DNA of 5,884 nucleotides from Deltaproteobacteria bacterium. GTDB taxonomy: Bacteria > Desulfobacterota > Desulfobulbia > Desulfobulbales > Desulfobulbaceae. The DNA is taken from the NCBI GenBank assembly GCA_024277485.1, contig JAJRVA010000037.1, forward strand, positions 1 to 5,884, given 5' to 3'. The position numbers and the translations under genes are program-made. Numbering within the stretch: the first letter of the stretch is position 1; each line of letters opens with the position of its first letter. Shown here in pieces: positions 1 through 5,884 of this stretch. The notes under the pieces were generated by a model. That model searched no databases. It had not been told where the DNA came from and was given only the letters and a program-made list of their open reading frames with translations.

Positions 1-123
1 CTGTTTGAGCATATCCAGCAGGATAAGAAGCAGTGGACGGTTCAGGACGGGAAAAAGAGGCTTGGGACGCAGGAGCGTATACGGGCGCAGACGGGTTCCA
101 AGTCCTGCGGCAAGAAGCATTGA
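1..123 (+). CDS. C-terminal end of an unidentified protein (5' truncated)
   Basis: Frame 1 is open from the window edge to a TGA at 121-123, giving the last 40 residues of a protein whose start lies outside the window. The translation begins LFEHIQQDKKQWTV and ends RIRAQTGSKSCGKKH. It is hydrophilic and basic, with one cysteine near the end and no membrane segment. Codon third positions are mostly G or C, as in the confident genes here, which supports real coding. A +1-frame open reading frame across the same DNA (5-205) gives an arginine/serine-rich, low-quality translation and was not chosen. I do not recognise the family from this tail. It is codirectional with hisHF but 169 bp upstream of it, so co-transcription is possible but not shown. 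Confidence 0.5.
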   Translation: MFEHIQQDKKQWTVQDGKKRLGTQERIRAQTGSKSCGKKH

Positions 124-178
124 CTGCATGGCTCTGAAATTTCCGGTAACCGAATCCTGTAAAATCTTTATCTTTCAC

Positions 179-206
179 TTGCGGACGACGCTGCATTTGC
201 GATAGT
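179..206 (+). promoter_or_regulatory. Weak candidate sigma-70 promoter for hisHF
   Basis: In the 169-bp gap before hisHF, TTGCGG (179-184) and GATAGT (201-206) are separated by 16 bp and resemble a -35/-10 pair. Each has mismatches to consensus. No other clear regulatory structure, attenuator or RNA was seen in 124-292. Confidence 0.2.
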
Positions 207-292
207 GTCTGTCGATGATAAAAAAGACCGCAGGGTCATTCGCAACCACTTACTGAAGAATACCCTTTTACTCCCATTTCGGACAGAAAAAC

Positions 293-1870
293 ATGATATC
301 TCTTTTAGACTACGGCGCCGGCAATGTCAGGTCTGTCGTCAATGCGCTTGAAAAGCTTGGCGAGACTGTGCAGACAGTGAACTCCGGCCGGGACATACTT
401 CATGCCGACCGGCTTGTTTTCCCCGGGGTCGGCAGTTTCGGCTCCATGATGGAAATCCTGCACAGCAAGGGCTTTGTGGCGCCCCTCACGGAGTACCTGG
501 AATCGGGGAAACCTTTTTTCGGCATCTGCCTCGGACTGCAGGCCCTTTTCAGCAGCAGTGAAGAAGCGCCGGATGTTGCCGGCCTGTCCATAATCCCGGG
601 GACGGTAAAACGGTTCACCGTCAACCTTGCAGTCCCCCATATCGGCTGGAACGGCATCAAAGTCCACCAGCTTTCCCGGATTTTCAACGGCCTGCGCGGA
701 GACGAAAAATTTTATTTTGTCCACTCGTACCATGTTGCGCCGGACTCGGATGAATATGTCCTGACAACAACCGATTACGGGTATGAGTTTGCCTCGGCAA
801 TCCGGAAAAACAACATTACAGCCACCCAGTTCCACCCTGAAAAAAGCGGCAGAGCAGGTCTCGCCCTGCTTGAAAATTTCCTGGCTGAAACCCGGGAGGA
901 GATCATTCCGTCATCCTGCCCGGACAAGACCAGGCTGGCCAGGCGGATAATTGCCTGTCTTGACGTGCGGACCAATGACCAGGGCGACCTGGTGGTGACC
1001 AAGGGGGACCAGTATGATGTCCGGGAAAACGGCAATGTCCGCAACCTGGGCAAGCCCGTCCAGTTAGCCGGCAGATACTATGAGGAGGGAGCGGACGAGA
1101 TCACCTTTCTCAACATTACCGGCTTCCGTGATTTTCCGCTTAAAGACATGCCCATGCTCGAAGTCCTTGAAAACACATCGAAAAACGTCTTTGTCCCGCT
1201 GACTATCGGTGGAGGGATACGCGACTACCGGGACAAGGACGGGCACAGGTATTCTGCCCTTGAGGTCGCATCCGAATACTTTCGCTCAGGCGCCGACAAG
1301 ATATCCATCGGCAGTGATGCCGTCCTTATCGTGGAAGAGGTGCTGCAGACCGGCAGGGCCACCGGGATGAGTTCCATTGAGCAGATTGCCCGGGTGTACG
1401 GCAACCAGGCGGTTGTGATCTCGGTTGACCCGCGCCGCGTGTACGTGAACACACCTGAAGAAGTGCGGCACCATACCATCGAGACAGCGATCCCTGGTCC
1501 GGAAGGAGAAAAATTCTGCTGGTACCAGTGTACTATAAAGGGGGGACGCGAAGGCCGTGATCTGGACGCGGTAACACTTGCCACGGTCTGCGAACAGCTT
1601 GGCGCCGGAGAGATACTGCTCAACTGCATTGACCGGGACGGGACCAACTCGGGCTTTGACCTGGAACTGATCAATGCGGTAAAAAATGCGGTATCAATAC
1701 CGGTCATCGCCTCAAGCGGGGCGGGCAGCCCTGACCACTTCATCGAGGTCTTCACGGAAACACGCGCAGAGGCAGCCCTGGCCGCAGGAATTTTCCACCG
1801 CCGTGAGGTCGCCATCAGCGAGGTCAAGGCAAGACTACGCGGCAGCGTCCCGGTCAGGGAAGAAAAATAG
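293..1870 (+). CDS. hisHF: Imidazole glycerol phosphate synthase, fused glutaminase-cyclase (HisH-HisF, eukaryotic HIS7 type)
   Basis: This cytoplasmic enzyme of histidine biosynthesis converts PRFAR plus glutamine-derived ammonia to imidazole glycerol phosphate and AICAR. Residues 1-200 are a class I glutamine amidotransferase. The nucleophile is Cys79 in GICLG, and His181 and Glu183 in QFHPEKSG complete the triad. Residues about 216-515 are the HisF (beta/alpha)8 barrel, with the catalytic aspartates expected at Asp224 (ACLDVR) and Asp379 (VVISVDPRR) and a phosphate-binding PLTIGGGIR at 302-310. Bacteria and archaea usually carry hisH and hisF as separate genes of about 200 and 255 codons; this 525-residue fusion is close to yeast HIS7 in length. 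It also has HIS7-like barrel insertions at 311-330 (DYRDKDGHRY) and about 385-424 (PGPEGEKFCWYQCTIKGGRE). The ATG at 293 gives the standard HisH N-terminus (MISLLDYGAGN); the ribosome site is weak (GGA about 9 nt upstream). No other his gene is adjacent. The gene ends just before a strong hairpin. Confidence 0.96.
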   Translation: MISLLDYGAGNVRSVVNALEKLGETVQTVNSGRDILHADRLVFPGVGSFGSMMEILHSKGFVAPLTEYLESGKPFFGICLGLQALFSSSEEAPDVAGLSIIPGTVKRFTVNLAVPHIGWNGIKVHQLSRIFNGLRGDEKFYFVHSYHVAPDSDEYVLTTTDYGYEFASAIRKNNITATQFHPEKSGRAGLALLENFLAETREEIIPSSCPDKTRLARRIIACLDVRTNDQGDLVVTKGDQYDVRENGNVRNLGKPVQLAGRYYEEGADEITFLNITGFRDFPLKDMPMLEVLENTSKNVFVPLTIGGGIRDYRDKDGHRYSALEVASEYFRSGADKISIGSDAVLIVEEVLQTGRATGMSSIEQIARVYGNQAVVISVDPRRVYVNTPEEVRHHTIETAIPGPEGEKFCWYQCTIKGGREGRDLDAVTLATVCEQLGAGEILLNCIDRDGTNSGFDLELINAVKNAVSIPVIASSGAGSPDHFIEVFTETRAEAALAAGIFHRREVAISEVKARLRGSVPVREEK

Positions 1871-1882
1871 CGTAAGGGCGCC

Positions 1883-1922
1883 CACCAAAAAAGCCGGGGC
1901 ATGAGCCCCGGCTTTTTTGGTG
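1883..1922. terminator. Bidirectional rho-independent terminator between convergent genes
   Basis: A perfect 18-bp inverted repeat (arms 1883-1900 and 1905-1922) has a 4-nt ATGA loop. The GC-rich core GCCGGGGC/GCCCCGGC is flanked by A6 on the left and T6 on the right. On either strand this gives a hairpin with a U-run on its 3' side. It lies 12 bp after the hisHF stop and 74 bp beyond the stop of the oppositely oriented cytochrome gene, so it can serve both. Confidence 0.92.
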
Positions 1923-1996
1923 CTTATTATAACTGTTTTCGGCCAGAATACCGGGCAAGGCGCAAGGAAACCCTCCTCACCCCTCACTCAGAGCAA

Positions 1997-3478
1997 TCAC
2001 TCCGGCTCATCATGACACAGGTCGCAGTCCTGCGGGATGACGTTGCCGATCTTGCTTGTATGCTCATCGTCATGGCAGCGCCAGCAGCCGTATCCTTCGT
2101 CGGCATCCTGGTGGCCGATATGCTGGCGATAGGTCCCCCAGGTGATCTTCATGTTGGGCCAGACATTGTTCTTCCAGTGTTCAAGGAGAAACTGACCGGC
2201 CTTGACAAGAAGTTCACCATTCTCTTCCACATATGCCTTGCCGTGGCGCTCCGCCTGCAGCTCTATCAGGGTCTTGATCAGGAGCTCATCAGCCTCATCA
2301 CGCGTGGCATATTCCTTTTCCAGCACCGTGATGCTGTCCTCGCGGATACCGGGAAGGCTCGGATCGATCTGACGACCTAACAGGCCGTAATCGACAACTT
2401 CCACAAGCCTGTTATTGATATGGGTCGGACGGTTGTGGCAGTCAATGCAGTCCATGGTCCGCCATTCAGGCACCTCTCCAGCCCCTTCACCTTCGGCCTG
2501 CTCACCATGGTCAATATCATACTCCTCCACAACACCATCGGGACGGGTAACCTTGACCTTGCCTATCAGGGTCCGGGTTTTATTCAGGGGCTGGTATTCA
2601 ACCTTGACATCGCTGCTCACATGCCAGTGGATACCTTCAAACTCCTCGGTAACCGGATTGCGACCGCCGATATGCAGGGATATCTCCTGGATCTCCGGGT
2701 TTTCCTGGTCATCATTGGAAAAGGAAACAAACTTCTTTACCCTTTTGCCGTGGAACTTTTCAGGCCAGTGACATTCCTCGCAGGTATCACGCGCCGGGCG
2801 GAGATGTTCGACCGGAGCAGGAATGGGCCGGCTGAAATTATCCGTAAAAACAGCAACAACCTGCCTCAGACCGGAAATCTTGGCCTTGACGAACCAGGAT
2901 GCGCCGGGACCGATGTGACATTCAGCGCATTTGACCTTTGAATGAGGAGACCGCTTGTATGCGGTGTACTCGGGCGCCATTACCTTATGGCAGAGTTTAC
3001 CGCAGAAATACGGTGATTCGGTAAAATGATACGCTTCGTAGCCGATAACGGTCAGGATGGCCACATTGAGGACGGTCAGGGCTAAAAAACCGACCATGTA
3101 TTTTTTATGACGGGGATTGCTTAAGTCAATGCAGAGTGACCGGTCATCAAGATGCGCGCCCAGGGAATCCTTCAGCCAGTGCTTCCTGTTGATATAACAG
3201 GCCAGCGGGATAATCAGCAGGCCCGTAACCATGAATCCCGGCAGAATCATGTAGCTCAGGGCCGCAAAGTAAGGATTCTCCACAAGGCCCAGCATGTCCA
3301 GGGCCAGACCGATCAGCATCAGGACCACACTGATGGTCGTGGTGGCAACACCGATGAGTCCCAGCGGTGTACGCCACATCGCGTACAGACAATTCTCCCA
3401 CAGTCCCCTGTCGGGGATCTGAGGCGGTGGTATCAGCTCTTCTCCACTGGGGCTGGTTTCTTCATTTTGATTAGCCAT
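1997..3478 (-). CDS. NapC/NirT-family multihaem c-type cytochrome, membrane-bound (six haem sites)
   Basis: A 493-residue membrane cytochrome, probably a quinol-oxidising electron-transfer protein that passes electrons from the menaquinone pool to periplasmic partners. Three hydrophobic helices lie at about 39-62, 74-96 and 128-148. The rest should be periplasmic and holds five CXXCH sites (184-188 CAECH, 233-237 CEECH, 344-348 CIDCH, 465-469 CWRCH, 485-489 CDLCH) plus a CX3CH site, CGKLCH, at 159-164. The NapC/NrfH-like core spans about 150-245 (HKVMAPEYTAY, SPHSKVKCAECHIGPGAS, RPARDTCEECHWPEKF). Canonical NapC/NrfH proteins have one helix and four haems in about 200 residues, so this is an extended relative. 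It resembles inner-membrane cytochromes of Geobacter such as ImcH in general plan, but I cannot assign orthology. The ATG at 3476-3478 is preceded by AGGAGGG with 10-nt spacing, lying inside the end of the upstream gene. Start and stop frames overlap by 8 bp, indicating translational coupling. Its terminal electron acceptor cannot be read from the window. Confidence 0.9.
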   Translation of the reverse strand: MANQNEETSPSGEELIPPPQIPDRGLWENCLYAMWRTPLGLIGVATTTISVVLMLIGLALDMLGLVENPYFAALSYMILPGFMVTGLLIIPLACYINRKHWLKDSLGAHLDDRSLCIDLSNPRHKKYMVGFLALTVLNVAILTVIGYEAYHFTESPYFCGKLCHKVMAPEYTAYKRSPHSKVKCAECHIGPGASWFVKAKISGLRQVVAVFTDNFSRPIPAPVEHLRPARDTCEECHWPEKFHGKRVKKFVSFSNDDQENPEIQEISLHIGGRNPVTEEFEGIHWHVSSDVKVEYQPLNKTRTLIGKVKVTRPDGVVEEYDIDHGEQAEGEGAGEVPEWRTMDCIDCHNRPTHINNRLVEVVDYGLLGRQIDPSLPGIREDSITVLEKEYATRDEADELLIKTLIELQAERHGKAYVEENGELLVKAGQFLLEHWKNNVWPNMKITWGTYRQHIGHQDADEGYGCWRCHDDEHTSKIGNVIPQDCDLCHDEPE

Positions 3479-4394
3479 CTCCCTTGTTCCCTCCTATCTT
3501 ATTGTGTAAAATCAAGCTCATTCGCTCGCCTGTTTCACGAACTTTCGCCAAAAGCTCCAGGCTTTCCTCATCATCAACCTGTTCGCTCTGATCAATCAGC
3601 AGCTGTGTATAATTAATTATGCCGGTCAGGTAGTTGCTCAGGTTATTCAACTCCTTCGGAGAAAGGGTAAATATCCCCTTGCCCTCTCCACCATGAACAG
3701 CAGCATAGGCCCCCTCGGCAAGCATCAGGTTAACCTGACGGGTCAGTTCCGCGATCTCCCTGCACGACTTCGGGTCAACAGCCAGAGGTTCCTGCAGGTC
3801 CGGCTCCTCCAGGTACCGGGCCAGAGAAATAAGCGGTATCAGTGCCTTCTGATACAAAAACAGTACCAGCAGAGACACGCTTGCTATCATAAATGTCAGG
3901 GCGCCGATGGCAAGCCCCTGGAACCGGACCAGCCGTGTCTTCATCTGACCGCTCAACACCCGGTCAAACTGCATCAGGTTCTCCGAGAGTATCCTGAGCT
4001 GATCGTGCAGCTGCACCGCGGTTTCGCGATCCTGCGGATTCTCGATAACCTTTCTGGCAAGCAGCGCTATACCGGGCAGATCCACCTGGTTTATGAGGGC
4101 CAGCTTATACTCTCCCGGCACCAGGGCGCTTTCAAGGAGCCTTGAGAGGTCACTGTTCAGGGCATCCACCTTGCTTGCCACGGCCTCAGCATCGCCCGGC
4201 TCGCCTGTTATCATGGTCCTGGTCAGGTGTTCACGCAGGGTGTCGAACCTGAACAAAATCTTTTCACCCTGATAAATAATGGTGTCGAATTCCCGCGTAA
4301 ACCTGTACTGCAGAAGTCCCAGGACAACGACCAGCGCTAAAAATGCAGCAACCGCACAAAACACACCGAACAAAATCTTCCGCAGCGAGACCAT
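3471..4394 (-). CDS. Two-helix membrane sensor-like protein with degenerate histidine-kinase dimerisation region, no ATPase domain
   Basis: This 307-residue protein has the architecture of the front half of a sensor kinase. TM1 lies at about 7-29 and a mostly helical periplasmic domain at about 30-157. TM2 follows at about 160-182, a HAMP-like linker at 183-230, and a segment at about 245-300 resembling a DHp (HisKA) hairpin: ELNNLSNYLTGIINYTQLL followed by LLAKVRETGERMSLI. In active kinases this box reads roughly HE(L/I)NNPLTGI. Here the histidine position is Lys or Asn depending on alignment, and the protein ends right after the second helix, with no N, G1 or G2 boxes. Phosphotransfer is therefore unlikely; a scaffold, signal-transmission or cytochrome-partner role is inference. 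The start is fixed by an in-frame TAA two codons upstream of the ATG at 4392-4394; no strong Shine-Dalgarno is visible. The stop TAA (3471-3473) lies inside the first codons of the downstream cytochrome gene, so the two form an operon. Confidence 0.75.
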   Translation of the reverse strand: MVSLRKILFGVFCAVAAFLALVVVLGLLQYRFTREFDTIIYQGEKILFRFDTLREHLTRTMITGEPGDAEAVASKVDALNSDLSRLLESALVPGEYKLALINQVDLPGIALLARKVIENPQDRETAVQLHDQLRILSENLMQFDRVLSGQMKTRLVRFQGLAIGALTFMIASVSLLVLFLYQKALIPLISLARYLEEPDLQEPLAVDPKSCREIAELTRQVNLMLAEGAYAAVHGGEGKGIFTLSPKELNNLSNYLTGIINYTQLLIDQSEQVDDEESLELLAKVRETGERMSLILHNKIGGNKGDG

Positions 4395-4795
4395 GAATTA
4401 CGCACCATGTCAGTGGTGTATGTTCTGAAGCAGGGACTTTCAAAGCCGGCACGTATCGGCCCGGTATCTACCACACCCGGATTTTGAGGCATGCAGAAAA
4501 TATCACCTGATATGGCCGGTATCCCTGGAAAAATCCTGTTGTACGGCGACAGCGGTTCCAATGAACGCTGCCCCCGGGAAAACCTTCAACGGAGCATCAC
4601 TTATACATACAACAAAAGCCGGGGAGATCACATCTCCCCGGCTTGTCCGTTCTCACCTGTTGGTAAACGAACCTTCAGTCTCTATTTTCAAGGTATCAAA
4701 ACCTTTTTATTTACATCAAAAGTGGTGTTCAGCTCAATACTTTTTTTCTATTAAAAATAATTTTTTATACAAAAGCAAGTAATCTCTCTTTTCAA
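4395..4795. other. Non-coding interval between the small-protein array and the sensor-cytochrome operon
   Basis: These 401 bp hold no convincing gene. Open frames here (for example 4337-4561 on -, 4491-4782 on +) have no family-like sequence and run over the terminator or into a neighbour. Contents are the hairpin terminator at 4616-4644 and an AT-rich stretch (about 4677-4795) that would be the 3' untranslated region of the small-protein operon. About 220 bp (4395-4615) must contain the promoter of the sensor-cytochrome operon. On the - strand a TTGAAA about 17 nt from a poor -10 near 4410-4440 is the best I can find, and it is not convincing. Confidence 0.6.
4616..4644 (-). terminator. Rho-independent terminator of the small-protein operon
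   Basis: A perfect 13-bp inverted repeat has arms 4616-4628 and 4632-4644 and a 3-nt loop; its core is GCCGGGGAGAT/ATCTCCCCGGC. On the - strand the stem is followed by TTTTGTTG, a usable though imperfect U-run. On the + strand it is followed by GTCCG, so it is oriented for - strand transcription. It lies about 150 bp after the stop of the last small gene. Confidence 0.75.
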
Positions 4796-5011
4796 TTAGA
4801 ACCCTGCGACAGCATTGACCCAGTTGCCAAGCAGTGAAACCGGGCCGCCACTCGCGGCAATGCCGCCGGCAAAACATGCCAGACTCCAGGTTACGACAAG
4901 CAGTGATGCAATGCCTGCTGTATAGATACCGGCCCTGGAAACTTCTGCTGCTGCTGATACCTTTTCTTCTGCCTGGGCCTTAACCCGGATTTTGACTGCT
5001 GTCCCTTTCAT
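4796..5011 (-). CDS. Small single-helix membrane protein, array member 3
   Basis: A 71-residue protein of unknown function, last of three tandem paralogues. The N-terminal 26 residues are polar and basic (MKGTAVKIRVKAQAEEK, then EVSRAG). A hydrophobic segment at about 29-54 follows, then a short conserved tail (ASGGPVSLLGNW, ending VAGF). The positive N-terminus predicts N-in, with the tail outside the inner membrane. It is identical at about 44 of 71 positions to the middle gene's product, aligned without gaps. It shares Cys46 with that protein but not with the first. The start is supported by GGGGAAG 4 nt upstream of the ATG (5016-5022). It is 47 bp downstream of the middle gene and should share its transcript. 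No known domain was recognised. Conservation of length, start and motif across three copies makes it a real gene. Confidence 0.85.
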   Translation of the reverse strand: MKGTAVKIRVKAQAEEKVSAAAEVSRAGIYTAGIASLLVVTWSLACFAGGIAASGGPVSLLGNWVNAVAGF

Positions 5012-5058
5012 TTTTCTTCCCCGTAAATATGCTTTGAATCAGTTGACCTGGTTTTTAC

Positions 5059-5274
5059 TTACATTCCGGTAACAGACTTGAACCAGTTACCAACCAGGGA
5101 GAGCGGACCGCCGCTTGCGGCAAGGCCGCCGACAAAACATGCCAGGCCCCAGATTCCGATAAGCGCTGATGCGATGCCTACTGTATAGACACCGGCCTTG
5201 GAAACTTCTGACGTGGCTGTTGTCTTTTCTCCTGCCTGGGTCCTGACGCGGGTATTAACTGTTGTTCCTTTCAT
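5059..5274 (-). CDS. Small single-helix membrane protein, array member 2
   Basis: A 71-residue paralogue of its two neighbours; family unknown to me. A basic N-terminus (MKGTTVNTRVRTQ) leads through EVSKAGVYT into a hydrophobic helix at about 29-54 containing W42, C46 and F47. The glycine-rich signature GGLAASGGPLSLVGNW follows at 49-64, and the protein ends SVTGM. Small residues spaced through the helix and its end (G49, G50, S54, G55, G56) would allow tight helix packing, so oligomerisation or docking to a larger membrane complex is plausible, but this is inference. A very strong ribosome site (GGAGG at 5282-5286, followed by AAGGAAA) precedes the ATG. It is 56 bp downstream of the first gene, on the same strand. 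Double-glycine pairs resemble bacteriocin leader ends, but they fall after the hydrophobic segment, which does not fit that model. Confidence 0.87.
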   Translation of the reverse strand: MKGTTVNTRVRTQAGEKTTATSEVSKAGVYTVGIASALIGIWGLACFVGGLAASGGPLSLVGNWFKSVTGM

Positions 5275-5330
5275 TTTCCTTCCTCCGGGTAATTTCTCTT
5301 TCTTTCTTTTTCACTATGACTGAATGTGTC

Positions 5331-5543
5331 TTAACCGAATACAGCCTGGATCCAGTTGGAAACAAGCGGCATTACTCCGCCGCTGGCAAGTATCCCGCCG
5401 ACAAATGCTGTAATAACCCAGGCCCCTACGAGTCCGGCTGCTATTGCCAGTGTCGTGATTGCGGCCTTGTTTACCTCTGTATTGGCATGTACTTTCTCTG
5501 CATTTTTTGCTCTTGTCTTTACTGCTGCGTCTGTTCTTTTCAT
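5331..5543 (-). CDS. Small single-helix membrane protein, array member 1 (promoter-proximal)
   Basis: A 70-residue protein, the first and most divergent of the three paralogues (about 31 of 70 positions identical to member 2, no gaps). It has a basic, polar N-terminus (MKRTDAAVKTRAKNAEK), the shared EVNKA at 23-27, a hydrophobic helix at about 29-54 and the signature F-V-G-G-x-x-A-S-G-G at 47-56, then LVSNW and a terminal VFG. It lacks Cys46 (Ala here) and the Pro57 of the other two. AAAGGAG (5550-5556) sits 6 nt before the ATG, a near-ideal ribosome site. The sigma-54 promoter upstream predicts a 5' leader of about 63 nt. Function is unknown. Regulation by a sigma-54 activator suggests an inducible rather than housekeeping role. 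Confidence 0.87.
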   Translation of the reverse strand: MKRTDAAVKTRAKNAEKVHANTEVNKAAITTLAIAAGLVGAWVITAFVGGILASGGVMPLVSNWIQAVFG

Positions 5544-5616
5544 TGTGTGCTCCTTTATTTTTTTCTTTGGTCTCTGTATTCCCGAGACTCATTGTTGCTT
5601 GTCTTGCCCCTTATAT

Positions 5617-5632
5617 TGCACCCGCTGTGCCA
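5617..5632 (-). promoter_or_regulatory. Sigma-54 (-24/-12) promoter of the small-protein array
   Basis: On the - strand the site reads TGGCACAGCGGGTGCA. The -24 element TGGCAC is a perfect match. The invariant GG (5631-5630) and GC (5619-5618) are separated by exactly 10 nt as RpoN requires, and the -12 element is GTGCA against consensus TTGCA. The predicted transcript start is near 5606, about 63 nt before the first ATG. The flanking AT-rich DNA upstream (5633-5715) could bend, but I found no convincing IHF match. Confidence 0.82.
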
Positions 5633-5645
5633 GAAAATATTTCTC

Positions 5646-5662
5646 AACGCAAAAAAAGCGTT
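5646..5662. other. Short inverted repeat with A7/T7 loop upstream of the sigma-54 promoter
   Basis: AACGC (5646-5650) and GCGTT (5658-5662) flank a run of seven A. It lies 14 bp upstream of the -24 element, between promoter and enhancer cluster. It may simply be a bent A-tract. The 5-bp stem is too weak for a confident terminator call, although on the - strand it could also slow read-through from the upstream gene. Confidence 0.3.
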
Positions 5663-5744
5663 TTAGCGCGTAACATATTGTTTTCACATGTTTATTTTTT
5701 TCATAATCGTGATTCAGCACTGGTCTCGTTCTGCCTGCCACAGG

Positions 5745-5804
5745 GCAACATGTTGCGCAACATGTGTAGCACGTGCAACACCCAAGCGCAACACATTGCG
5801 TTGC
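5745..5804. promoter_or_regulatory. Enhancer-like cluster of GCAACA/TGTTGC half-sites with an 18-bp perfect palindrome
   Basis: GCAACA occurs at 5745, 5757, 5775 and 5788, and TGTTGC at 5751, with near matches TGTAGC at 5765 and CGTTGC at 5799. The palindrome ACATGTTGCGCAACATGT is perfect at 5748-5765. A second near palindrome with one mismatch pair (TGTAGCAC/GTGCAACA) occupies 5765-5780. The cluster is centred about 140-170 bp upstream of the predicted start at 5606, the usual range for activator sites of NtrC-family proteins. It lies immediately after the 3' end of a gene with a Fis-type DNA-binding tail. That the regulator binds here is inference. Confidence 0.65.
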
Positions 5805-5813
5805 TCGCACCAC

Positions 5814-5884
5814 TTATTTTGCAACAGGTGAGATATTCAGGCGACGCATGCGCCTGTAAAGAGTGCTTCGATCAATACCCAGAA
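5814..5884 (-). CDS. C-terminal Fis-type helix-turn-helix of an NtrC-family sigma-54-dependent regulator (5' truncated by window edge)
   Basis: On the - strand from the window edge, one frame encodes 22 full codons ending at TAA (5814-5816). The first part reads LGIDRSTLYRRMRRL and the tail NISPVAK. The pattern G-I-x-R-S-T-L-Y-R-(R/K)-(M/L)-(K/R)-x-(L/Y) is the recognition-helix end of the HTH_8 (Fis-type) domain that closes NtrC-family enhancer-binding proteins, usually right at the C-terminus as here. The receiver or sensory domain and the AAA+ domain would lie outside the window. It is codirectional with the small-protein array; 270 bp separate its stop from the first small gene. That gap contains the half-site cluster and the sigma-54 promoter. 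It is too short to appear as an ordinary open reading frame, so it is easy to miss. Confidence 0.82.
   Translation of the reverse strand, partial: LGIDRSTLYRRMRRLNISPVAK

Follow-up and report, generated by a model that had tools for sequence, protein, structure and literature searches.

The Psp system of enterobacteria is sigma-54-dependent, is controlled by an AAA+ activator and includes small one-helix inner-membrane proteins. A second point of reference is the small membrane protein MgtR, which is reported to promote degradation of MgtC; FtsH is involved in this process. Here we describe an array of three genes for small one-helix membrane proteins in a 5,884-nucleotide (nt) stretch of DNA from a Deltaproteobacteria bacterium assigned to the Desulfobulbaceae (GenBank assembly GCA_024277485.1, contig JAJRVA010000037.1, positions 1 to 5,884, forward strand; the whole stretch is referred to as the window), and we compare it with related arrays in a sample of loci carrying L numbers. 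We propose, giving the proposal an even chance of being right, that the arrays belong to a two-component-controlled module for maintenance of the respiratory membrane, in which abundant small proteins would serve a dedicated FtsH and its electron-transfer partners.

The window array lies on the minus strand and, according to open reading frame (ORF) calls and comparison with relatives, consists of a type 1 protein of 70 amino acids (aa; 5331..5543), a type 2 protein of 71 aa (5059..5274) and a 71-aa duplicate of type 2 (4796..5011). The three proteins are 44-62% identical to one another; the second and third ORFs share 78% DNA identity over 232 nt and are a younger duplication. An earlier sequence-only reading of the window had described three tandem copies with good ribosome sites. 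Three copies are indeed present in the window, but the number is lineage-specific: types 1 and 2 both occur in 7/7 close relatives, of which six have two copies and only L001 has a third. Likewise, two of the small ORFs have strong Shine-Dalgarno sequences, but the third (4796-5011) scores 0 in a simple scoring scheme. The remaining elements named in that reading (a helix-turn-helix (HTH) tail of an activator, a half-site cluster, a promoter and a hairpin) are all in the sequence and all on the minus strand with the three ORFs.

The small proteins belong to a widespread family. A search with the protein of the middle ORF gave 68 matches at 1e-3, the window's own protein included, and a scan of genome contigs with a 32-sequence alignment returned the seven loci that we call window-type (L001-L007), labelled as Desulfobulbaceae, Desulfobulbus, Desulfobacteraceae, Deltaproteobacteria and one unassigned bacterium. 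The order of genes for small proteins, a 307-aa protein and a multiheme cytochrome is kept in 7/7 of these loci. In the order to which L001 belongs, 97/146 genomes carry the family (1e-3), with up to 14 members per genome. With a wider profile, members were detected in 20/395 genomes of the phylum at 1e-5, nine of them already in the order sample and the other 11 with group not stated; at 1e-4 the same profile matched 486 proteins, of which 120 are listed. Among 125 members (those shorter than 60 or longer than 95 aa, and duplicates, being excluded) the median length is 72 aa and the median pairwise identity 31%. The common layout is a hydrophilic N-terminal tail of about 33 residues, one hydrophobic helix and a short C-terminal part; the C-terminus is conserved as SGGP followed by a short helix, and Trp is found in 123/125 members. 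Three sequences (L057:3508, L072:10554 and L088:9336) were excluded from alignment A3.

No family in Pfam or NCBIfam was matched at E 1e-3 by any of 58 diverse members, and the three window proteins gave weak, sub-threshold matches only. A search of solved structures returned a single match, to a cytochrome P450 at E 0.25. An AlphaFold model of a small protein has a mean predicted local distance difference test score (pLDDT) of 66.6 and a predicted template-modelling score (pTM) of 0.30, with helices predicted at residues 2-53 and 57-69 separated by a break, and is too weak for a fold search. In L070, L077 and L089 the arrays comprise six proteins in apparently repeated three-protein blocks, suggestive of block duplication. 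A viral origin was considered and rejected: the seven pattern matches in viral contigs were none of them confirmed.

Upstream of the window array, the sequence CTGGCACAGCGGGTGCA (5617..5633) fits a -24/-12 sigma-54 promoter at 11 of 13 scored positions, and the previously reported spacing of exactly 10 nt holds, as GG-N10-GC. Matches at 10 or more of the 13 positions precede the array in all seven window-type relatives. We extended this comparison to a sample of 55 loci with 57 arrays, L054 and L057 each having two arrays that share an FtsH. Forty of the regions (L052-L091) were chosen from family matches, mostly best-ranked first and not randomly; one array of L057 (3574-3687) is a single weak match (E 0.01) that was retained in the array counts, and the L024 array was omitted from the promoter count, its upstream sequence being short. 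One fixed scheme was applied throughout, in which a match had to include GG and GC, which make up 4 of the 13 positions, and the threshold was 10, to 330 nt upstream of arrays (314 nt in the window; array starts are approximate) and 300 nt upstream of control genes. The threshold was reached for 48/56 arrays, as compared with 19/504 other upstream regions and 38/2800 shuffles. We conclude that a putative sigma-54 promoter is a well-supported feature of the arrays.

The arrays that lack it are instructive. A kinase-regulator pair resembling RegB/RegA, and related from locus to locus, adjoins six of them (L061, L071, L078, L079, L082 and L086), and none of these six has the promoter, as against 48 of the 50 others (Fisher p 8.6e-7); the remaining two promoter-less arrays are L069 and the weak single match in L057. 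The RegB/RegA assignment is by best NCBIfam match, below the cut-offs (210 and 209 of 350 bits for the L082 and L086 kinases; 176 of 250 bits for the L086 regulator), and the L086 regulator has a receiver and an HTH domain and no AAA+ domain. Thus, the promoter follows the type of the adjoining regulator, which is what control of an array by its neighbour would predict. The promoter is still present at seven arrays (L018-L021, L074, L085 and L088) that have no sigma-54 activator within 6 kb, and their control would have to come from elsewhere.

The activator itself is represented in the window by its end. Read on the minus strand from 5882, the sequence translates as LGIDRSTLYRRMRRLNISPVAK-stop, with the stop codon at 5814-5816, and matches LGIDRSTLYRRMQRLNISPVAK, the C-terminal end of the complete 608-aa activator of L001; on this basis, 5814..5884 is assigned to the 3′ end of a gene for an NtrC-family sigma-54 response regulator. 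The cluster begins with an activator of about 605 aa in the six loci whose sequence extends sufficiently upstream, L005 being the exception. All six complete relatives have a receiver (REC) domain, a PAS domain, an AAA+ domain with GAFTGA and a Fis-type HTH, match Pfam Response_reg, Sigma54_activat and HTH_8, and contain Walker A; the window has the tail alone. This bears out the earlier identification of the neighbouring gene as an NtrC-family sigma-54 activator. Over the whole sample, a sigma-54 activator was found within 6 kb of 39/57 arrays, gene classes around arrays being assigned by motif, and the class of the activator is well supported by these comparisons.

The probable binding sites of the activator lie between its gene and the promoter. 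The 341 nt ahead of the first small ORF contain eight words of the type GCAAC/GTTGC, and six of the eight fall inside a cluster of TGTTGC/GCAACA palindromic half-sites at 5745..5804, which probably serve as enhancer sites; shuffled sequences average 0.59 and 0/500 reach eight. Half-sites are also far above shuffles in L001, L002, L004, L005 and L007 (0/500 shuffles with as many in each case), and are sparser in L003 and L006, where 40 and 5 of 500 shuffles, respectively, have as many. The seven close relatives share with the window both the promoter and sites ahead of the array. Promoter and sites are well supported by this comparison, and neither it nor the GAFTGA check of the activators refuted the sequence-only reading. 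By eye, TGTCGCA/TGCGACA replaces TGTTGCA upstream of the array in L003 and L006, two close relatives. The HTH end of the activator differs there too, and a joint change of site and regulator is possible.

A sigma-54 activator adjoining small one-helix membrane proteins is also the arrangement of psp, and one alternative is that the arrays are a Psp-like response to inner-membrane stress, whose small proteins would stabilise or seal the membrane, or would sense its state and feed back on the activator. RegBA senses signals of the redox or proton-motive-force type, and RegBA-like control of some arrays would fit such sensing. However, the activator is not PspF-like but a response regulator with a receiver domain: that of L001 scores 265 bits against the PspF model TIGR02974, whose cut-off is 443.55. 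The small proteins, moreover, have no Pfam match in 58/58 cases, and the link to electron-transfer genes appears stronger than psp would predict. We therefore regard a Psp-like response as unlikely.

The array is followed by an intrinsic-terminator-like hairpin of 13 pairs with a T-rich tail (4616..4644), and a hairpin with a T tail follows the array in 8/8 window-type loci (the window and L001-L007). Over the sample, a strong hairpin lies within 250 nt after 27/57 arrays, as compared with 42/531 other genes and 1/570 shuffles; by this criterion 30/57 arrays lack one. The sequence-only reading had taken the hairpin as the end of a self-contained unit. This is not so: the conserved cluster includes two more genes on the same strand beyond the hairpin (3471-4394 and 1997-3478), so that the unit extends past it. 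Nor is the recurring unit self-contained, since it also has, depending on the locus, a histidine kinase, FtsH, a kinase-like membrane sensor and multiheme cytochromes. A stand-alone unit was accordingly rejected as the primary reading, the conserved cluster being larger.

An FtsH-like protease lies within 6 kb of 39/57 arrays, and is downstream on the same strand in 29/57. Four representatives from relatives have AAA+ plus peptidase M41 with the HEXXH motif: by Pfam, 3/3 tested have the FtsH-type AAA and peptidase M41 domains, and by NCBIfam two exceed the cut-off of the FtsH model. With about four FtsH genes in roughly 3.5 Mb, we estimate the chance of an FtsH in a 13-kb stretch at about 1.5%; the observed 39/57 is far above this expectation, although the loci are related and not randomly drawn. 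A multiheme cytochrome (at least four CXXCH) lies within 6 kb of 42/57 arrays. The electron-transfer partner varies among FtsH-bearing arrays, being either ImcH-like or NrfD plus c7-type cytochromes. Sensor kinases are also recurrent: a relative of the PAS histidine kinase of L077 is upstream of the array in 20/55 loci, and a relative of the HAMP-type kinase of L058 is nearby in 9/55; neither type was found in window-type loci. We conclude that a module of arrays, regulators, FtsH and cytochromes is well supported by comparison.

The array-linked FtsH proteins appear to form a group of their own. In a tree of 59 FtsH sequences, 37 array-linked sequences and two from near the L006 and L007 clusters fall on one side of a branch with 100/100 support, and 14 single-copy FtsH from family-lacking genomes fall on the other, with six others; this is a split rather than a proven clade, because the root is a midpoint. 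Genomes with the small-protein family have a mean of 4.0 FtsH copies (97 genomes), as compared with 1.45 in those without it (49 genomes; Mann-Whitney p 1.4e-16), and FtsH count correlates with the family (Spearman 0.69), both statistics being uncorrected for ancestry, genome size and completeness. We consider a separate array-linked FtsH group to be well supported as a feature of these protein sequences.

Several observations weigh against the maintenance proposal. No FtsH was found in the window or in L001-L005, over the sequence examined, and the L006 and L007 copies are not adjacent to the array but about 6.2 and 7.1 kb away. No FtsH was found within 6 kb of ten further arrays (L018-L021, L072, L074, L080, L083, L085 and L088), all of which have the promoter; part of this absence is missing sequence, because the contigs of L018-L020 are 3.2-7.4 kb long and L080 ends 546 nt past the array. 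In the tree, long-branch warnings fall on both sides; nine rows are flagged as long, of which six are array-linked, and the long pair L136/L139 touches the dividing branch. The copy-number relation has exceptions in both directions, with at most one FtsH in 4/97 family-bearing genomes and at least three in 5/49 family-lacking ones, and common ancestry, genome size or completeness could underlie both the FtsH count and the presence of the family. The N-terminus is more positive than the C-terminus in only 82/125 small proteins, so that their topology is not certain.

Genome G001 contributes the four loci L018-L021, in which the small proteins are single-copy with -24/-12 matches of 11-12/13 and neither activator nor FtsH was seen within 6 kb, three of the loci being on short contigs. 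In L021 the small protein is beside a 2031-aa cytochrome with 12 CXXCH.

The small proteins could instead be accessory subunits of the adjoining quinol dehydrogenases (ImcH-like and NrfD-type), or factors in their assembly, with FtsH present only for quality control of these complexes. Multiheme cytochromes adjoin slightly more arrays than FtsH does (42 against 39, within 6 kb), and in window-type loci a sensor remnant and an ImcH-like cytochrome directly follow the array, without FtsH. However, the partner enzymes differ in kind, and no recognised cytochrome was found within 6 kb at L018-L020 (short contigs), L074 and L085. The hairpin and tandem copies also suggest an excess of small protein over a single-copy cytochrome. 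Neighbourhood alone is not decisive between an FtsH partner and a cytochrome subunit, because arrays with one and without the other occur both ways. We judge the subunit explanation to be rather improbable, if less so than a Psp-like response.

The same neighbourhoods bear on the suggestion that the arrays encode membrane-active peptides, that is, tandem toxin-like, holin-like or antimicrobial small proteins. The proteins are short, hydrophobic and tandem, but throughout one order their neighbours are in most cases genes for regulators, proteases and cytochromes, and none of the seven pattern matches in viral contigs was confirmed. We consider this explanation very unlikely, and a toxin or holin array was rejected as the primary reading. 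The sequence-only reading had put forward envelope stress, membrane complex assembly and a membrane-active peptide as possible roles; of these, a membrane-active peptide acting alone has become less likely, and membrane complex assembly or stress is favoured.

The two genes beyond the hairpin are both on the minus strand. The nearer (3471..4394) encodes the 307-aa membrane protein, which alignments and a fold model suggest combines a NarQ-like sensor half with a remnant of a histidine-kinase dimerisation domain. Two membrane regions flank a helical part. The model has a mean pLDDT of 76 and a pTM of 0.43; its top six matches in the PDB are NarQ fragments, at E 0.025 to 0.12, with no match at 0.001. 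The end of the protein matches HisKA weakly (17.7 bits of 26.9), with Asn250 at the position of the phospho-accepting His, without exception in all 20 and all 38 rows aligned. The protein stops after the dimerisation part, and neither it nor the three relatives scanned gave a HATPase match. Because Asn replaces the phospho-accepting His and the ATPase domain is missing, the protein is best read as a histidine-kinase remnant, and might act in regulation by pairing with a kinase. Full kinases in L056 and L060 share its N-terminal half and keep His-Glu. These full-length membrane kinases (L056 4977-6971 and L060 50-1513) indicate that kinase and remnant versions coexist.

The farther gene (1997..3478) encodes a 493-aa multiheme cytochrome that we classify from motifs and Pfam as ImcH-like. 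Its N-terminal part contains three hydrophobic segments, with one CX3CH adjoining them; the protein also has five CX2CH, and scores 39.9 bits against Pfam NapC/NirT and 44.2 of 134.2 bits against NCBIfam NrfH; a search of PDB sequences gave no match at 1e-3. ImcH homologs are described as having three N-terminal helices, one CX3CH, five to nine CX2CH and partial NapC/NirT similarity (PMC6295460). The window cytochrome has this set of features and is ImcH-like by features.

We propose that these components would work together as follows. A histidine kinase would pass a redox or membrane signal to the NtrC-type response regulator, possibly with the NarQ-like remnant protein as an intermediate in the window lineage. 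The regulator would then bind the GCAACA palindromes and drive the sigma-54 promoter. A short transcript closed by the hairpin would yield a large amount of small one-helix proteins, and read-through past the hairpin would yield less of the sensor remnant and of the ImcH-like quinol dehydrogenase; at about half of the arrays (29/57), a same-strand FtsH gene follows downstream, and 39/57 have one when the other side and strand are counted too. The hydrophilic tail of about 33 residues is probably cytoplasmic. To engage a membrane protein, FtsH requires about 20 residues of cytoplasmic tail, and we offer as a lead that the tail of the small proteins would suit FtsH initiation. The small proteins would most likely be adaptors, modulators or substrates of the separate FtsH group and, with FtsH, would act when electron-transfer complexes of the membrane are assembled, repaired or turned over. 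A bolder version of this maintenance model, which we put forward tentatively and consider doubtful, is an order-wide quality-control system in which the one-helix families are interchangeable adaptors or sacrificial substrates that steer a dedicated FtsH to particular quinone-linked complexes, with different small proteins for each complex and on-demand expression under sigma-54 or RegBA-like control.

Two features of the wider loci lie outside the module. A single 525-aa gene on the plus strand of the window (293-1870) fuses HisH and HisF, both NCBIfam models scoring above cut-off; eukaryotes have a like fused enzyme, and genes of similar start and length are present in L001, L003 and L006. 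Upstream of the cluster in L006 are two tandem gene pairs (719-2617 and 4659-6554; 204 aa and 421 aa), of equal lengths and with identical first 40 residues, which may be a duplication or an assembly artefact.

We found no published description of the module in a literature search by titles and abstract openings, subscription journals lying mostly outside it. The small-protein family is present in about two thirds of the sampled genomes of an environmentally important order, yet is without a Pfam or NCBIfam model, as judged from 58 members; cable bacteria belong to the same order. The maintenance model offers a concrete and testable account of the upkeep of the electron-transfer membrane in these anaerobes, and the arrays are a defined place to seek new FtsH partners.

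Among known systems, the module resembles two-component and sigma-54 controlled membrane maintenance, with a small-protein family that appears unnamed in Pfam and NCBIfam. The window cytochrome shares with the ImcH family of inner-membrane quinol oxidases its helices, its CX3CH/CX2CH set and its NapC/NirT similarity; “Desulfobulb” occurs 0 times in the main text of that paper (PMC6295460). The pairs beside promoter-less arrays (L082, L086) find their best NCBIfam match in RegB/RegA (PrrB/PrrA, ActS/ActR), but score below the curated cut-offs and are RegBA-like only. The predicted fold of the 307-aa protein resembles the nitrate/nitrite sensor kinase NarQ, at the marginal E values given above, but unlike NarQ it has Asn for the phospho-histidine and no ATPase domain. 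As in Psp, the arrays combine a sigma-54 promoter, an AAA+ activator and small one-helix membrane proteins; unlike in Psp, the activator has receiver and PAS domains, FtsH and cytochrome genes stand beside many arrays, and the PspB, PspC, PspD and PspG families were not matched by any of the 58 members at 1e-3 (PspA was not searched for). As with MgtR and FtsH, small hydrophobic proteins are associated with membrane proteolysis, here by gene neighbourhood; the module differs in having a separate FtsH group, small proteins that are tandem and expanded as a family, and sigma-54 promoters.

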